Shown here: positions 19,964 through 25,148 of the stretch, in pieces
How positions within the stretch are numbered: the first letter of the stretch is position 1
Layout of the letters: each line of letters opens with the position of its first letter
NCBI GenBank assembly: GCA_017467265.1
Contig: JAFTSO010000036.1
Location: 1-35,417 of the forward strand
Direction of reading: 5' to 3'
Length of the DNA: 35,417 bases
Source of the DNA: Clostridia bacterium
GTDB lineage: Bacteria > Bacillota > Clostridia > Christensenellales > Borkfalkiaceae
The notes under the pieces: model-generated
The model's input: the letters and a program-made list of their open reading frames with translations, nothing else
What the model was told of the DNA's origin: nothing
Databases searched by the model: none
Translations under genes and position numbers: made by a program

Positions 19964-20004
19964 GAAACCCCCGTGGACGAGATATGTCCACGGGGGTTTT
20001 GCTT
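19964..20004 (-). terminator. Terminator of the large lipoprotein gene
   Basis: The stem AACCCCCGTGGAC pairs with its complement around GAGATAT, with A/T runs on both flanks, so it can act in both directions. It lies about 20 bp beyond the stop codon of the minus-strand gene. Confidence 0.85.
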
Positions 20005-20023
20005 ATTTTGTCAATCCAAAGGA

Positions 20024-23000
20024 TTAATCGTTGTAAGGGCTATCTTCGTCGATTTCTTCTTTGGGTTCTTCCGTTTCGACCTTTGCGATCTTCACGCGCT
20101 TGGATTTTTCTTTCTTGGGTTTACGTTTCTTCGAAAGGATATTCTTGCGCGCTTTCTTCCAGATCTTGCGGAAGATGATGCTCGCGATTGCCAGAACGAG
20201 GGCTACTGCGATGACAATCGAGCTTATCAACAGCAAGGGGTTCGTGCCCTGCGTAGTGGGTGCTGTTTCGTCGGGATTGTCCGTCGTCGTGTCGTCCTTA
20301 TCGCTTGCCGACGCGGTCACTACTTGATCCTGCGTTGCATAGTTGACAAGGAAGTTCTGGTTTTCGTTTTCTGCGCCTGCGTACAGATAGAAGGTAGCCT
20401 CTTCCTGCGCCGTCACGTCGTAGTTTTCTTCGTAAAGATTGCCGATTTCGTCCGTATCCAAATCTTCGTTATAGCGGAGGAATTTATCGGTATCGAAATA
20501 GGAGAACACGCTCTTGTACTGTTCGATCGTATCGTCGTCTTCGTACACGCCGAGCAAGTTGTTGTAATACGTTTCTGCGTTGCTAGCAGGGGACGGGTTG
20601 CCGTCGAGCATTACGTACGTGCCTGCGGCGTTGGGGTTGCCCGTTCTCTCGCCGCTCCAAATTTCAAGGCGATAATTCTTCGCCGTCGAACCGGTGTGGA
20701 TATAGAACGTGACCGTCACCCAGTCGTTCGTCGCCGCTACTTTTGCGTGCAGAGCTTTGCTTGCCGCTGCACCCGTACGGGTTGCAACGCCCGTCGCGGA
20801 GAAGTCGCTCACGGGAAGGGTGCAAGCCTTGTCTGCGTAGTACGCACCGTCTTTATGATAGAACGCGATCGCGCGTTTTTCGCCGCTCACTTTCACGTAT
20901 TCTTCTGCGCCCACGTAATCGTGTACGCCGCCGTTCTTCGCAACCAGCTTGTTGTTGTTCGCGTCGAGATCGGTGTATGCGTTCAAGTTTGCGAAATACT
21001 TGCCAGCCATCGTAGCCGCGTCGTAGCCGCTCCACTTCGTATTTGCGATATACAGACCGTTCGCCTGCAAGATAAATGCCTTTTCAGAGCTGCGTTCCGT
21101 AGGATCGCCCGTGTAAACGTCGCCTTTCTTGTCGTACCAGTAGGTCGTCTTTGCGCCGATCGAAAGGACGTTCGTGCGCGTGTCGTCGCTGGTGTCGATG
21201 AGATAGATATGTGCGGAAGGTGCTGCTGCGTTCGTATCCGTGCTGCCTACCTTAACGCGCATAGAAATTGCCGTGTAGGTGTTCGCCGCGATCGAAGTGC
21301 TGTTGCCGATAAAGCCATAGGAGTTGGTCGTATCCGTGCCGTCGTTCCAAATGAACAGGGGCTGCGTCGCATCACCGAACGCCGCGTTCCAAACCGCCGT
21401 CGCGTTCGTGGTATCTACCGCGGAGTTCTTCTGCTGAGCGATCGTCGTGATACCTGCCATCCAAGCGGGAGCGTTCGTCGTCGTGTAATAGCTTTCTTCG
21501 CCTTTCGCGCCCGTGAAATACGTTCTGTTCAAAAGACCTGCGTTCGTGTACGTGTTGATCGCCGTGTTCTCGTTGAACTTGTCGGTCACGTAGTCGCTGT
21601 CGCTGTAAACGCCTTTATAATTCTGCGCCAACGCGATACCCTTTTCAATGCTCGTATGCGTAGCCGATTTGTTGCCAGCCGTATCGAAACCGCTGTTCCC
21701 AGCCGCCGTCACGTCTTCTTCGCCCGTCACCGTCACGAGTTTTGCATACGTGCCGCTCGTCGCGCTCTCGTATTCTTCCGCGCTCATTTCCAAAGTCTGG
21801 AAGTTGGTGAACGCCGCAAAGCCCGTCTGGAAGGAATTGATCGACGAAGTTTCATCGATGGTGGTAGGACCGAAGTTGAACTGCAACTTGAACGACGCGT
21901 TCACATCGTCCGAATCGTTCTTCACGAAGAAGATATATTGCTGCCAACCCTCGTAGATGTCTTCTTTATAGCTGTCCGTGCCTTCCGTGCCGATGTTCAC
22001 AGGCGTGATATCCGTCGTGTCGATCGCGTCGAAGGACGTCTTGTTTCTGCCGTCAATAAGCGTGACGCCTGCACCCGTAAAGCCGTTCATATCCGATGTT
22101 CTTACGAAGAAGGATACCGCCATATATTCCACGTCGCTGTTGAAAGCGAAGGTGTAATCGGATTTCGCCGTGTACGCTACGCCGCGCGCGCTCATCATCA
22201 AAAGGACTTTGTGGTTTGCGCCAGGATATTCTACGTCGGTGAGATAGTTCGCATATACCGCATCGACAAACGATTTCTTGTCCGCGCCGTCCGCATCGCC
22301 GGAGTCGGGGGTGTAGTTGCCGATTGCCGCAATATTATCAAACACTTTGATCACGTCGGCGTTGCCGTTTCTGCCCCCTTGGAGCGTGGGCATCGTGTTG
22401 TTGCCCGTCATCGACGTGTAGCCGTCTTCGCTCTTCGTTGCGAAATGGCTGATGCTGTTCAAAACGCCGTCCGCGTTCGAGAATTCACCGTAGAAATCGA
22501 TGGGGAATACGTCAAAGCCCTGACCTGCTACGTAGCCGAGCGTTTCTGCGTTTGCATATGCATTGGCGTTATATTCCTTGGAAACGTCGATTGTCTTCAA
22601 CGCCTTGGGATCTTCGAATTTTGCAGCCTGCACTACGTTTGCCGTGGGGTGTGCGTTTACTTTGCCTGCAAATTCTTCCTGCGAGAAGATATTGCATTGA
22701 ATATCGTCGAAGAACGCATAGCCGTTGACAAGCTCCGTACGGGAGTTGGACGTGCCTTGACCAAGACCGAGCGTGAGCGTCAGCGTCGTCGATGCGTACG
22801 ACGAACCCTTCACGTAGAAGGTGTACTGTTTCCAGCCGTTCGTATCTTCCAGCCCCATATACTCGGTGTTGATATTCTTCACTTCGTAAGCGGGCATAGA
22901 CGCGCCGCCAACCGTCTGCGACAGGGTGATATACGCGCCCTTGTCCACGGCTTCCTGTGCCGTACCGTCCGAGCTGGACGACATCAGATCTTGCGTTTTT

Positions 23001-23788
23001 ACCCAAACGGAGATCTCTGCCGCTGCGCCTGCCTGTACCGTGACGGTGGAAGACGAAGTGTATTTCTGCGCCGAACCGATGGACTGAATAACCTTTTCGC
23101 CCTCGTCCGTTTCGGGGTTCTTGTTGTGAATCATCAGGACGTTGTGATCGCTAAACCCTTCCGCCGCTTTGTCCGCTGCGGAGTGGTGTGTGCCGGGATT
23201 TGCGGTGTCGGGAACGTCAACAAGCGCGAGCGAGCCGCCGTTAAAGCTCTCGTACTCGTCAAAATCTTCGGAAATTTTGCCGTCTTCGTTCGCGTCTTTC
23301 CAAACTTCGTAATATTTGAGCTTGTCACGCGTGGTGAAATTGTCCCACAGCGCGATCGCGTCTTCTTCGGAGAGTGCCTCGATGAGCTTGTCCGCAGCCG
23401 CGACGTCTGCCGCTTCGCCGTTATCCACGTAGTACGAGCCGGTCAAATTGTTCCAAGCGTCGTCGCTAGTATCCAAAATACCGCTGTCTGCCTTGGACGA
23501 AGGCGCGCTGTTCGTGCCGTCCGAGAACAGGGAGCGCGACCAGTTGGAAACGGTCATACCGATCACGTTCAAACCGTCGTTGGTGTCGAAAACTTCGAAA
23601 CCTGCGTTTTTGATAGGGCCTTTATCGGTGACCGTCGTTTCCGTTTTTTCTTCTTCGGAAGAGCTTTCCGACGAAGTGCCGCCGTTGCCGCCTTTGCAGG
23701 CTGCCAAGGACGCGACGGAGATCGCCATCATTGCCGATAAGAACAATGCAAGAAGTTTTTTCTTGCGGTTTTGGGTAGAATCTTTCAT
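20024..23788 (-). CDS. Very large lipoprotein with repeated beta-sandwich domains and C-terminal membrane anchor
   Basis: The 1254-residue protein starts with a signal peptide (KKKLLALFLSAMMAIS) and lipobox SLAAC, so Cys31 would be lipidated. A Gly/Ser/Glu-rich linker follows. The body contains at least four segments of carbohydrate-binding-like jelly-roll pattern: AEISVWVKTQDL with GWKQYTFYVKG (about 255-345), YMAVSFFVRTSDM with WQQYIFFVKND (about 550-640), YTAISMRVKVG, and WVTVTFYIHTG with YRLEIWSGERTG. Near residue 1184 a single hydrophobic helix begins, followed by a long Lys/Arg-rich tail and an acidic end. Double anchoring is unusual. It may bind surface glycans. An EF-like DANEDGKISEDFDEYE segment is near 165-180. 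Function is unknown. Confidence 0.85.
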   Translation of the reverse strand: MKDSTQNRKKKLLALFLSAMMAISVASLAACKGGNGGTSSESSSEEEKTETTVTDKGPIKNAGFEVFDTNDGLNVIGMTVSNWSRSLFSDGTNSAPSSKADSGILDTSDDAWNNLTGSYYVDNGEAADVAAADKLIEALSEEDAIALWDNFTTRDKLKYYEVWKDANEDGKISEDFDEYESFNGGSLALVDVPDTANPGTHHSAADKAAEGFSDHNVLMIHNKNPETDEGEKVIQSIGSAQKYTSSSTVTVQAGAAAEISVWVKTQDLMSSSSDGTAQEAVDKGAYITLSQTVGGASMPAYEVKNINTEYMGLEDTNGWKQYTFYVKGSSYASTTLTLTLGLGQGTSNSRTELVNGYAFFDDIQCNIFSQEEFAGKVNAHPTANVVQAAKFEDPKALKTIDVSKEYNANAYANAETLGYVAGQGFDVFPIDFYGEFSNADGVLNSISHFATKSEDGYTSMTGNNTMPTLQGGRNGNADVIKVFDNIAAIGNYTPDSGDADGADKKSFVDAVYANYLTDVEYPGANHKVLLMMSARGVAYTAKSDYTFAFNSDVEYMAVSFFVRTSDMNGFTGAGVTLIDGRNKTSFDAIDTTDITPVNIGTEGTDSYKEDIYEGWQQYIFFVKNDSDDVNASFKLQFNFGPTTIDETSSINSFQTGFAAFTNFQTLEMSAEEYESATSGTYAKLVTVTGEEDVTAAGNSGFDTAGNKSATHTSIEKGIALAQNYKGVYSDSDYVTDKFNENTAINTYTNAGLLNRTYFTGAKGEESYYTTTNAPAWMAGITTIAQQKNSAVDTTNATAVWNAAFGDATQPLFIWNDGTDTTNSYGFIGNSTSIAANTYTAISMRVKVGSTDTNAAAPSAHIYLIDTSDDTRTNVLSIGAKTTYWYDKKGDVYTGDPTERSSEKAFILQANGLYIANTKWSGYDAATMAGKYFANLNAYTDLDANNNKLVAKNGGVHDYVGAEEYVKVSGEKRAIAFYHKDGAYYADKACTLPVSDFSATGVATRTGAAASKALHAKVAATNDWVTVTFYIHTGSTAKNYRLEIWSGERTGNPNAAGTYVMLDGNPSPASNAETYYNNLLGVYEDDDTIEQYKSVFSYFDTDKFLRYNEDLDTDEIGNLYEENYDVTAQEEATFYLYAGAENENQNFLVNYATQDQVVTASASDKDDTTTDNPDETAPTTQGTNPLLLISSIVIAVALVLAIASIIFRKIWKKARKNILSKKRKPKKEKSKRVKIAKVETEEPKEEIDEDSPYND

Positions 23789-23977: not shown

Positions 23978-24346
23978 ATGGAAGGAAAAAAAACGGCGAA
24001 TTTGCGGCGGATTGTCTGCGGTGGCGTAGTGGGTGCGGCGAACAGTATTTTGGGGGGCGGCGGCGGTATGATTGCCGTGCCGATGCTCGCTAAAACGGGG
24101 TTGGACGAAAAGAGGGCGCACGCGACGGCGATTTTGGTGATCCTGCCCGTGTCCCTTTTTTCCTTTCTGCTGTACGCGGTAAAGGGCACGTACGATCTGT
24201 CCGTGCTAATCCCCACGTCGATCGGCGTGACGGCAGGCGGATTGTTAGGGGCAAAATTACTCGGCAAATTGCCGACGAAAGCGGTGGAGCTAACCTTTGC
24301 GTTTTTGCAGCTGATCGCAGGGGTATTTTTGTTCTTTTTTCGCTAA
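23978..24346 (+). CDS. Half-length TauE/SafE (TSUP) membrane protein, first of a pair
   Basis: The 122-residue protein has four hydrophobic helices and the glycine-rich TSUP signature VVGAANSILGGGGGMIAVP near 17-35. Full TauE/SafE proteins are about 250 residues made of two such repeats; this is one repeat. A second half-length TSUP gene lies 430 bp downstream, so the two probably form a heterodimeric transporter of sulfite, sulfonate or another organic anion. The ATG is preceded by ACGGGGT, a weak ribosome site. No clear promoter is seen; a weak -10-like TGATAAT lies at about 23922-23928. Confidence 0.8.
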   Translation: MEGKKTANLRRIVCGGVVGAANSILGGGGGMIAVPMLAKTGLDEKRAHATAILVILPVSLFSFLLYAVKGTYDLSVLIPTSIGVTAGGLLGAKLLGKLPTKAVELTFAFLQLIAGVFLFFFR

Positions 24347-24384: not shown

Positions 24385-24494
24385 GTAATTTGAAAGGCGT
24401 TGCCTTTCGTGATTTGAACGCTATGCGTTCGTGAATTGAAAACCTGCGGTTTTCGTGATTTGACGGCTACGCCGTCGTTGCGGTGAGCCACCGC
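24385..24494 (+). repeat. Left mini-hairpin array (5 hairpins, spacer GTGAATT/GTGATTT)
   Basis: Five perfect mini-palindromes with 3-nt loops occur in a row: 24392-24408, 24416-24430, 24438-24454, 24462-24476 and 24480-24494. Their stems all differ (arms AAAGGC, AACGC, AAAACC, ACGGC, GCGGTG); the first four are closed by an outer G-C pair. The first four are separated by a strict 7-nt spacer, GTGATTT or GTGAATT; the last spacer is shortened to GTT. A related TAATTT precedes the first. No ORF covers the array. Confidence 0.9.
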
Positions 24495-24602
24495 TGGCAT
24501 ATCTTACTATCTTTTCCACGTGTATGTATGCGCCCCACATTGGTTTGAACACGTAATCGACCGTGTTTTGTGGCAATGACCTACTTATAATATTCCCATA
24601 AC
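24495..24602. other. Central segment between the two hairpin arrays
   Basis: About 108 bp separate the arrays. They contain one larger inverted repeat: AACACG and CGTGTT around an 8-nt loop (about 24549-24568), inside weaker outer arms GCCCCAC and GTGGC. An AT-rich TTATAATATT follows near 24586. No ORF or known motif is visible. Confidence 0.5.
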
Positions 24603-24765
24603 GCAAAGCACAGCTTTGCAATTCACACGCCGAAAGGCGCAATTCACGCCCCTTTGGGGTAATTCACGTTTTGCAAAAACAATTCACGCAACTACGTTGC
24701 AATTCACGCCCCTTTGGGGCAATTCACGTTTTTCGGAAACAATTCACGCAACCACGTTGCAATTC
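24603..24765 (+). repeat. Right mini-hairpin array (8 hairpins, spacer AATTCAC, 20-bp period)
   Basis: Eight mini-palindromes start at 24603, 24628, 24648, 24668, 24688, 24708, 24728 and 24748. From 24628 on the period is exactly 20 bp: a 13-nt hairpin (5-bp stem, 3-nt loop in most, outer G-C pair) plus spacer AATTCAC. Arms include CGCC, CCCC (twice), TTTT, and CAAC (twice, with loops TAC and CAC). One hairpin has a GAAA tetraloop and one contains a G-T pair. The spacer is the reverse complement of the left array spacer, so the two arrays face each other. Confidence 0.92.
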
Positions 24766-24776
24766 CCCCCCTACAT

Positions 24777-25148
24777 ATGCGCTTTTATCTCTATTTATTA
24801 TTAGGTTTTTTAGGGGGAATACCTGCCGGGATGGGTATGGGCGGCGGGACGGTGACGATCCCCTTGCTCGTGCTCGTCGGAGGCGTGGGGCAAAAGATCG
24901 CCCAGAGCGCCAACCTGTTTTCCTTTCTGCCGATGAGTGTAGGTGCGTTAAAGACGCACGCGGACAACGGATTGCTCAAAACCGAAGGGGTGGGGTGGGT
25001 GATTTTGCCGGCACTGCTCTCTTCCGCGTTGGGGACGAGCCTTGCCGTCGCGCTCCCGTCCGCGCTCTTGAAACGTGCGTTCGGCGCGTTCCTGATCGGC
25101 TTATCCGCCGTTGGATTTTATCGTACTTTATCGAAAAAGACGGCTTGA
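24777..25148 (+). CDS. Half-length TauE/SafE (TSUP) membrane protein, second of a pair
   Basis: The 123-residue protein has four hydrophobic helices and the glycine-rich TSUP motif GGIPAGMGMGGGTVTIPLLV near 13-32. It is the partner of the half-length TSUP gene at 23978. I chose the ATG at 24777; the open frame extends upstream, but that part is translated hairpin-array DNA. There is no clear ribosome site, only a run of C and ACAT before the ATG, so translation may be weak or the mRNA structure may matter. The stop codon overlaps the -35 box of the downstream HAD gene. Confidence 0.78.
   Translation: MRFYLYLLLGFLGGIPAGMGMGGGTVTIPLLVLVGGVGQKIAQSANLFSFLPMSVGALKTHADNGLLKTEGVGWVILPALLSSALGTSLAVALPSALLKRAFGAFLIGLSAVGFYRTLSKKTA

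Follow-up and report, generated by a model that had tools for sequence, protein, structure and literature searches.

The window analysed here, a stretch of 35,417 nucleotides that forms the whole of contig C15 of genome G000 (1.39 Mb, 79% complete), contains an array of small palindromes spanning 24385-24767 between two half-length TSUP genes. The upstream gene (23978..24346, plus strand) matches the TauE profile PF01925 with E 2.3e-19 at profile positions 125-237 of 237, and the downstream gene (24777..25148, plus strand) matches the same profile with E 2.1e-13 at positions 2-111 of 237. Both genes flank the element and lie outside it. The left arm (24385..24476), whose arm orientation reads on the minus strand, is composed of the heptamers GTAATTT, GTGATTT, GTGAATT and GTGATTT, in this order, each followed by a hairpin (24392-24408, 24416-24430, 24438-24454 and 24462-24476, respectively). 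It is followed by a centre of the form GTT...AAC (24477..24602) and by the right arm (24603..24767, plus strand), in which eight hairpins are followed each by AATTCAC and the last by AATTCCC. A 60-bp tandem duplication with 92% identity (24639..24758, plus strand, copies at 24639-24698 and 24699-24758) expands the right arm by three units, and an insert of about 110 bp enlarges the centre. The window copy is therefore atypical in both parts, as canonical arms have four hairpins (see below).

The first-pass annotation of this DNA had reported palindromes, 7-nt spacers and two opposed arrays, all of which are present in the sequence of the window as claimed. The 20-bp period that it gave for the right array is exact for the spacers from 24641 on, while the first interval (24620 to 24641) is 21; four of its five left palindromes belong to the array, and the fifth (24480-24494) sits in the insert of the centre. 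That this copy departs from the usual form could not be recognised in the first-pass annotation. The word CAATTCAC occurs 7 times in the window against 1.57 expected, and an Rfam scan of the window gave zero matches. Elsewhere in the window, two ORFs with about 1255 codons apiece overlap in antisense (20024-23788 on the minus strand and 19973-23740 on the plus strand); no more than one of the two is a likely gene.

The array is not confined to this locus. The pattern AATTCACN{10,16}AATTCAC has 20 matches in G000, 6 of them in the window, and its reversed control has 0; the 20 matches are distributed over the window, eight further loci, several of which agree in the contents of their slots, and a solitary match at C16. 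All four left-arm stems of the window are found in the same order at three other loci of this genome (L014, L016 and L018), with single stem differences in each of the last two. Short centres occur elsewhere in G000 (GTTGTTGTTATATTTCCACAAC at L016, GTTATTGTAATATTTCCACAAT at L014), and the centre insert of the window is related to repeats at L010, L012 and L018, in tandem at the last. A repeat of about 90 bp containing GGTGAGCCACCGCTGGCATATCTTACTATC is dispersed in G000 (window 24480-24590; L010; L012; in tandem at L018, ~1150-1400) and is found within some array centres. The centres at L012 and L018 contain, between the arms, a third repeat with GTAATCTCGCAAAACGG / TCATTACGAACGGAGCGCAAGCGAAG.

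Among the 61 genomes searched, G000 included, 18 carry the AATTCAC pattern, several of them by one match only that may be due to chance, and the reversed control gave 1 match in total. A longer pattern was found in 15 of 396 genomes of the order and was absent from the other 381, its control matching none. Nine matches on viral contigs were inspected and all nine lacked clear hairpins by eye; likewise, no clear hairpins were seen by eye at 19 non-clostridial loci inspected among the matches listed, and both sets were rejected as chance.

The canonical plan was parsed from elements of eight genomes or named isolates. The commonest element is composed of four heptamer-hairpin units, a GTT..AAC centre of mostly 21-32 bp and four hairpin-heptamer units in reverse. 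Exactly four hairpins are present in 105 of 196 parsed arms and the complete 4+4 arrangement in 41 of 112 parsed elements or lone arms, many four-hairpin arms of G022 having been split in two by the parser because one unit (TGAGCGNNAGCGAA-like) is an imperfect palindrome. G051, which belongs to another family of the order, has single arms that stand by themselves, and the arm was therefore taken as the unit of the element. The palindromic units, which vary, measure 9-27 nt, and the constant unit between them measures 7 nt. Stems are perfect in 586 of 624 folding units, and 487 of 645 segments bounded by exact heptamers are perfect hairpins versus 1.1% of shuffled segments. A linker-blind search for two perfect hairpins at a fixed distance revealed 340 pairs at a gap of 7; each of the other gaps between 3 and 12 gave 42-74 pairs, and shuffled sequence gave 8 pairs at gap 7. 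At G402:C6:1559-1658, in a different family of the order, five consecutive AATTCACG units with short stems and a period of 18-19 bp were seen.

Besides AATTCAC, the linker-blind search revealed the 7-nt linkers ATTTCAC, ATATCGC, ACTTCAC and ATATCGA, their shares being biased because AATTCAC had been used to retrieve most of the loci. Sister families of the element, which lie outside the window and hence beyond the reach of the first-pass annotation, use the heptamers ATATCGC, ACTTCAC, AATTCAT and more. The ATATCGC pattern is present in 24 of 61 genomes, with a reversed control that is not zero (13 matches in 12 genomes). It is rich in G017 and G022, with 2-4 matches each in G004, G028 and G036; the 1-4 matches in each of the remaining 19 positive genomes are mostly unstructured-looking, and hairpin-like ones are seen in G019 and G045. 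At L288:7164-7464 (G022) an ATATCGC-type element is nested within an AATTCAC-type element.

Each genome has a limited vocabulary of stems, which are reused across slots, mostly with varying loops. For most stem words the loops are not constant within a genome, and the copies therefore look old. Stems differ by slot and by species yet stay paired, while the heptamer and the 7-nt spacing recur. Orthologous sites, in which both flanking genes are shared, number 3 for G000-G022, 4 for G035-G022 and at most 2 for other pairs. At such sites two species have the same plan with different stems, which bears out the earlier proposal that the structure is kept while the stem sequence turns over. The first-pass annotation had named two outcomes that would speak against its reading, namely hairpins without turnover and a pattern confined to this DNA; the stems do turn over and other genomes do carry the pattern. 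The same-site elements with different stems may be either inherited or independent insertions. A target-site duplication was not apparent in 47 elements, the flanks of which have no excess of shared k-mers (mean 2.0, shuffled 1.9). Of the 32 species inspected, 7 have an array at the TSUP site itself, of the AATTCAC type in G000, G008, G014, G020 and G022 and of an ATATCGC-like type in G017 and G036; 25 species have no array there, 18 of them with a gap of 86 bp or less. This survey left out G001, G002, G013 and G028, which matched and whose locus was not fetched, and G015, which had no match.

A protein partner was suggested by L200:2951-3534 of G028, where an ORF of 117 codons lies between two arms and matches PF05635 (23S_rRNA_IVP, E 2.1e-26) and TIGR02436. 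A profile search of 48 genomes of the order, a set that included genomes chosen for carrying arrays, yielded 41 PF05635 matches, distributed over 23 genomes; one match is below the family cut-off. The arrays are associated with these genes, a link that lies outside the window and could not be seen in the first-pass annotation. At least two heptamer-bounded hairpins were found within 380 bp at 33 of the 41 PF05635 loci versus 2 of 300 control windows from same-order loci, and at least three at 28 of 41 versus 0 of 300; the call at L335, among these 33, is based on a run of A and is probably spurious. PF05635 loci from other Bacillota had at least two such hairpins in 2 of 30 cases. With a stricter count, which required at least two links of the same heptamer, 15 of 41 loci were positive versus 1 of 400 controls. 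The strict count gave 17 loci at a gap of 8 nt and 15 at 9 nt versus the 15 at 7 nt, and it does not separate the 7-nt gap from 8 or 9 because the stems could be trimmed. Two PF05635-like genes were found on viral-class contigs, and one of these, L390 (IMGVR_UViG_3300031555_007195), has by eye an ATTTCAC-type array upstream.

At the 33 IVP loci labelled by eye, the array is positioned only 5′ of the gene in 23, on both sides in 9 and only 3′ in 1. In 8 IVP loci solely reverse heptamers precede the gene and solely forward heptamers follow it, which means that the gene lies within the centre of the element. The heptamer also co-segregates with the IVP. Labels were read by hand for these 33 loci, variant heptamers being merged in some and 8 of the 41 loci without an assignable heptamer being left out. 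On the IVP tree the labels change 14 times, the minimum for 15 states, while 300 shuffles required at least 22 changes; the count is lenient because 16 of the tree's 38 inner branches are open. Automatic labels (21 loci, 12 states) gave 11 changes, again the minimum, while shuffles required at least 13. IVPs that share a heptamer and come from different host families have a mean identity of 75% (15 pairs), and those with different heptamers one of 47% (495 pairs). The former value would fit a joint transfer of gene and array.

Solved relatives of the IVP are 2rld and 2gsc, each with five chains per file. PMC4990558 describes an S23 protein of Xanthomonas as a homopentamer built from four-helix bundles and reports that IVP/S23 proteins have no known function. 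Arrays and gene do not always coincide. By means of a model built from array-linked IVPs, no PF05635 relative was found at E up to 10 in seven array-bearing genomes, G000, G008, G014, G022, G033, G035 and G036. Incompleteness of the genomes can hardly be the cause of all seven absences (G035 is 93% complete), and therefore the gene is not needed now for the arrays, unless it was missed in every one of them. In G051 the dispersed arrays are of the AATTCAC and ACTTCAC types while the heptamer of its only IVP gene is ATTTCTC.

The loops of the hairpins follow a rule of their own. A C-G closing pair with an R..A loop, or the complement, was observed for 363 of 497 hairpins inside arrays versus 158 of 1210 outside. 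Counting only loops of 3-4 nt on stems without mismatches, the hairpins in arm orientation (hairpin 5′ of AATTCAC, n = 545) comprise 351 R..A, 67 T..Y and 127 other loops. Read on the transcribed strand in same-strand gene contexts, 5′ arms have T..Y 128, R..A 36 and other 53, while 3′ arms have R..A 130, T..Y 16 and other 38. The direction of the loop thus follows the arm and not transcription, which favours folding of DNA, and the loop rule as a whole favours selection on folded DNA, although the same polarity would be expected if transcription started in the centre and ran in both directions. According to PMC4496689, extrusion of phage N4 hairpins at physiological supercoiling requires a C:G closing pair and a loop with 5′ G and 3′ A. 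The loop rule of the arrays resembles this requirement; in the 3-nt loops observed here A is almost as frequent as G at the 5′ position.

Compared with shuffled sequence, one canonical element has a far better predicted fold, with z −7.8 as RNA and z −7.6 as DNA. The centroid fold of the window copy consists of separate hairpins. Long-range pairing of the arms (GTGAATT with AATTCAC), which forms a rod of four-way junctions, was seen in the minimum-energy fold of the single canonical element that was folded. It is not relied on, since the arms in G000 and G022 partly differ in heptamer (AAATCAC and ATTTCAC versus AATTCAC).

We consider that the arrays, the window copy included, are probably non-coding copies of a dispersed element that encodes an IVP. 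Our confidence in this reading is restrained by the seven genomes without IVP, the heptamer mismatch in G051 and the lack of a target-site duplication. The unit of the element is taken to be the arm, a half-centre ending in AAC and then four short hairpins, each with the family-specific heptamer after it, and two facing arms form the usual element. Coding members of the related families carry the gene for the IVP, a four-helix-bundle protein, between the arms or directly downstream of a complete array. In single-stranded or negatively supercoiled DNA, the hairpin-AATTCAC strand would be expected to fold into a row of stable mini-hairpins, with purine-N-A or GNNA loops closed by C-G, leaving the heptamers single-stranded between the hairpins. 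An oligomeric IVP of the matching family might then recognise heptamer and hairpins and use the array for its spread, for control of its own gene, or for both, and the AATTCAC copies in G000 may owe their spread to such a protein. Gene-less copies would persist like MITEs or REPINs, some perhaps being kept by the host.

There are hints of mobility in the patchy TSUP site, at which two of the seven arrays have another heptamer, in the nested element at L288 and in the viral-class locus L390. The long upkeep of arrays without IVP points to host selection or to a repair mechanism. Much more tentatively, and with some doubt, we propose a new class of mobile element, in which an oligomeric IVP, without any transposase or reverse transcriptase, recognises rows of folded DNA mini-hairpins through a clade-specific heptamer and drives its own copying as well as that of gene-less 4+4 arrays; in that case the rRNA IVSs would be members of the same system that became stranded in rRNA genes.

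The main rival, which we regard as unlikely, is a DNA element maintained by the host, in which extrudable intergenic hairpins take up supercoiling, serve as binding sites for a nucleoid or single-strand protein, or act as insulators between transcription units in the manner of BIMEs, the link to IVP being secondary. It would account for the strong conservation of structure in genomes where no IVP gene was found, for the filling of the same intergenic site with different stems in different species and for the likeness of the loop rule to the N4 requirement (PMC4496689, in part), and some elements abut terminator-like hairpins by eye. However, an element serving the host is difficult to reconcile with the patchiness of the longer pattern in the order, and the co-segregation of heptamer and IVP would be left unexplained. 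The arrangement of the flanking genes speaks against it as well. Genes around 97 elements (10 of 107 were dropped at contig or locus edges) are tandem in 75, convergent in 13 and divergent in 9 cases, while the background (n = 370) is 284, 38 and 48, so that there is no sign of a bias to transcription ends; some rows of this count are wrong because the simple gene model missed the second TSUP gene. Five of the 107 elements (4 in G051, 1 in G014) overlap a called gene by more than 60 nt, which we take as miscalls. The same absence of a tandem bias over background weakens a second, improbable explanation, in which the array is transcribed and its hairpins set the stability, processing or translation of the mRNA of the next gene. 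Most elements do lie between same-strand genes, often near a stop codon and the next start, whole arrays stand directly 5′ of many IVP genes, and the canonical element folds well as RNA, though about equally well as DNA. On the mRNA strand, however, loop polarity flips between the arms, as outward transcription from the centre would also predict. Stems with one mismatch show no clear excess of G-U (G-U 12, A-C 8, other 7) and are uninformative on RNA selection, the third base of the GNNA loops listed (Y 43, R 35) indicates no GNRA preference, and the window has no Rfam match. Control of the second TSUP gene by RNA structure, offered in the first-pass annotation, is accordingly not upheld as a general role, since loop polarity follows the arm and gene orientations equal the background.

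Two further explanations are less probable still. In one of them, which we rate as very improbable, the arrays are a mutational by-product: template switching during replication makes and keeps palindromes, and duplication multiplies them, without selection. Template switching has been reported to create and mend perfect stems (PMC8794818, in part), and a 60-bp duplication is present in the window. This explanation fails on the 7-nt spacers, the shared heptamer, the arm-wise loop rule and the presence of an IVP link, and it is already disfavoured by the modal number of four units per arm and by heptamer-IVP co-segregation. The other, which has the least to recommend it and which we scarcely credit, is that of REP-like elements moved by RAYT or an IS200/IS605-type Y1 transposase. 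Intergenic palindromes, inverted pairs and the lack of a target-site duplication would agree with it, and a Y1 gene is present in some array-bearing genomes. Y1_Tnp matches were obtained for 16 of 48 genomes, some of which have arrays and some of which do not; the array-bearing G012, G014, G022, G036, G102, G121, G241 and G402 each have at least one. Nevertheless, PF01797 is missing from the array-bearing G000, G028, G035 and G051 and is present in G030 and G031, which are free of the AATTCAC pattern. The dependence on RAYT or TnpA that the earlier annotation had suggested finds no support in this distribution, which does not follow the arrays. As regards a TnpA gene in or near the element, a feature of IS200/IS605, there is no Y1_Tnp match in G000 and the centres inspected are too short for such a gene.

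Taken together, these results suggest that an element scattered through some gut bacteria is a new kind of mobile or selfish DNA. The IVP/S23 proteins here are accompanied by specific and repeated nucleic-acid partners, the heptamer of which follows the protein clade. As it does so, a direct binding test is possible. Moreover, the arrays form a natural library of mini-hairpins with an extrusion-like loop and closing pair, and could therefore reveal whether extruded DNA hairpins are in use at many sites in bacterial chromosomes. A literature search, covering the leading matches and few subscription journals, returned no report of arrays of this type or of hairpin repeats linked to PF05635.

Among the known systems, CRISPR arrays also alternate a constant short sequence with variable units. 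Their constant repeats are of ~21-48 nt and their spacers are unique and non-palindromic, while here it is the variable units that are palindromic and the constant unit is a mere heptamer. The likeness to REP, BIME and REPIN sequences is greater, as these are dispersed intergenic palindromes in inverted pairs, with a repeat type linked to the clade of a partner gene and with gene-less copies, all of which applies to the arrays. REPs have a conserved stem and a GTAG/CGTC tag; the arrays differ by variable stems on a constant linker, by four hairpins per arm and by needing no RAYT. The earlier statement that the element is neither a CRISPR nor a normal REP can thus be retained. Target-site duplication, the feature of DDE-type MITEs, was not found in the 47 elements mentioned above. 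The accessory protein Avd of DGRs is a four-helix-bundle protein considered related to IVP. With the early promoters of phage N4, described in part of PMC4496689 as short stems with a 3-nt loop and a C:G closing pair that extrude from supercoiled DNA, the array hairpins share stem length, loop and closing pair; the N4 hairpins differ in being single promoters for the virion RNA polymerase and not arrays.

The intervening sequences (IVSs) of 23S rRNA share with the elements described here the protein family, PF05635/TIGR02436. In PMC4990558 the IVS is an ORF flanked by inverted-repeat DNA and is called selfish, and the PF05635-centred elements have the same layout of an ORF between inverted repeats. 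The Coxiella IVS lies within a helix of the 23S rRNA, from which RNase III cuts out one long stem (same source, in part); the present elements are instead intergenic, consist of rows of mini-hairpins with heptamers and have many gene-less copies. It may be added that tandem heptamers (GACAGAT) are described just upstream of the S23p ORF in the Coxiella IVS (PMC4990558, in part). The IVP is encoded in 8 related elements and not in the window copy, with none found in G000, and the window copy lies between two TauE genes, not inside a 23S rRNA gene. The features tested for REP/RAYT do not hold, and those of the IVS hold for the protein, in related elements only, and not for the location. Should the arrays turn out to be no more than the ends of IVS-like elements, they would represent a variant of the IVS rather than a new kind of element.
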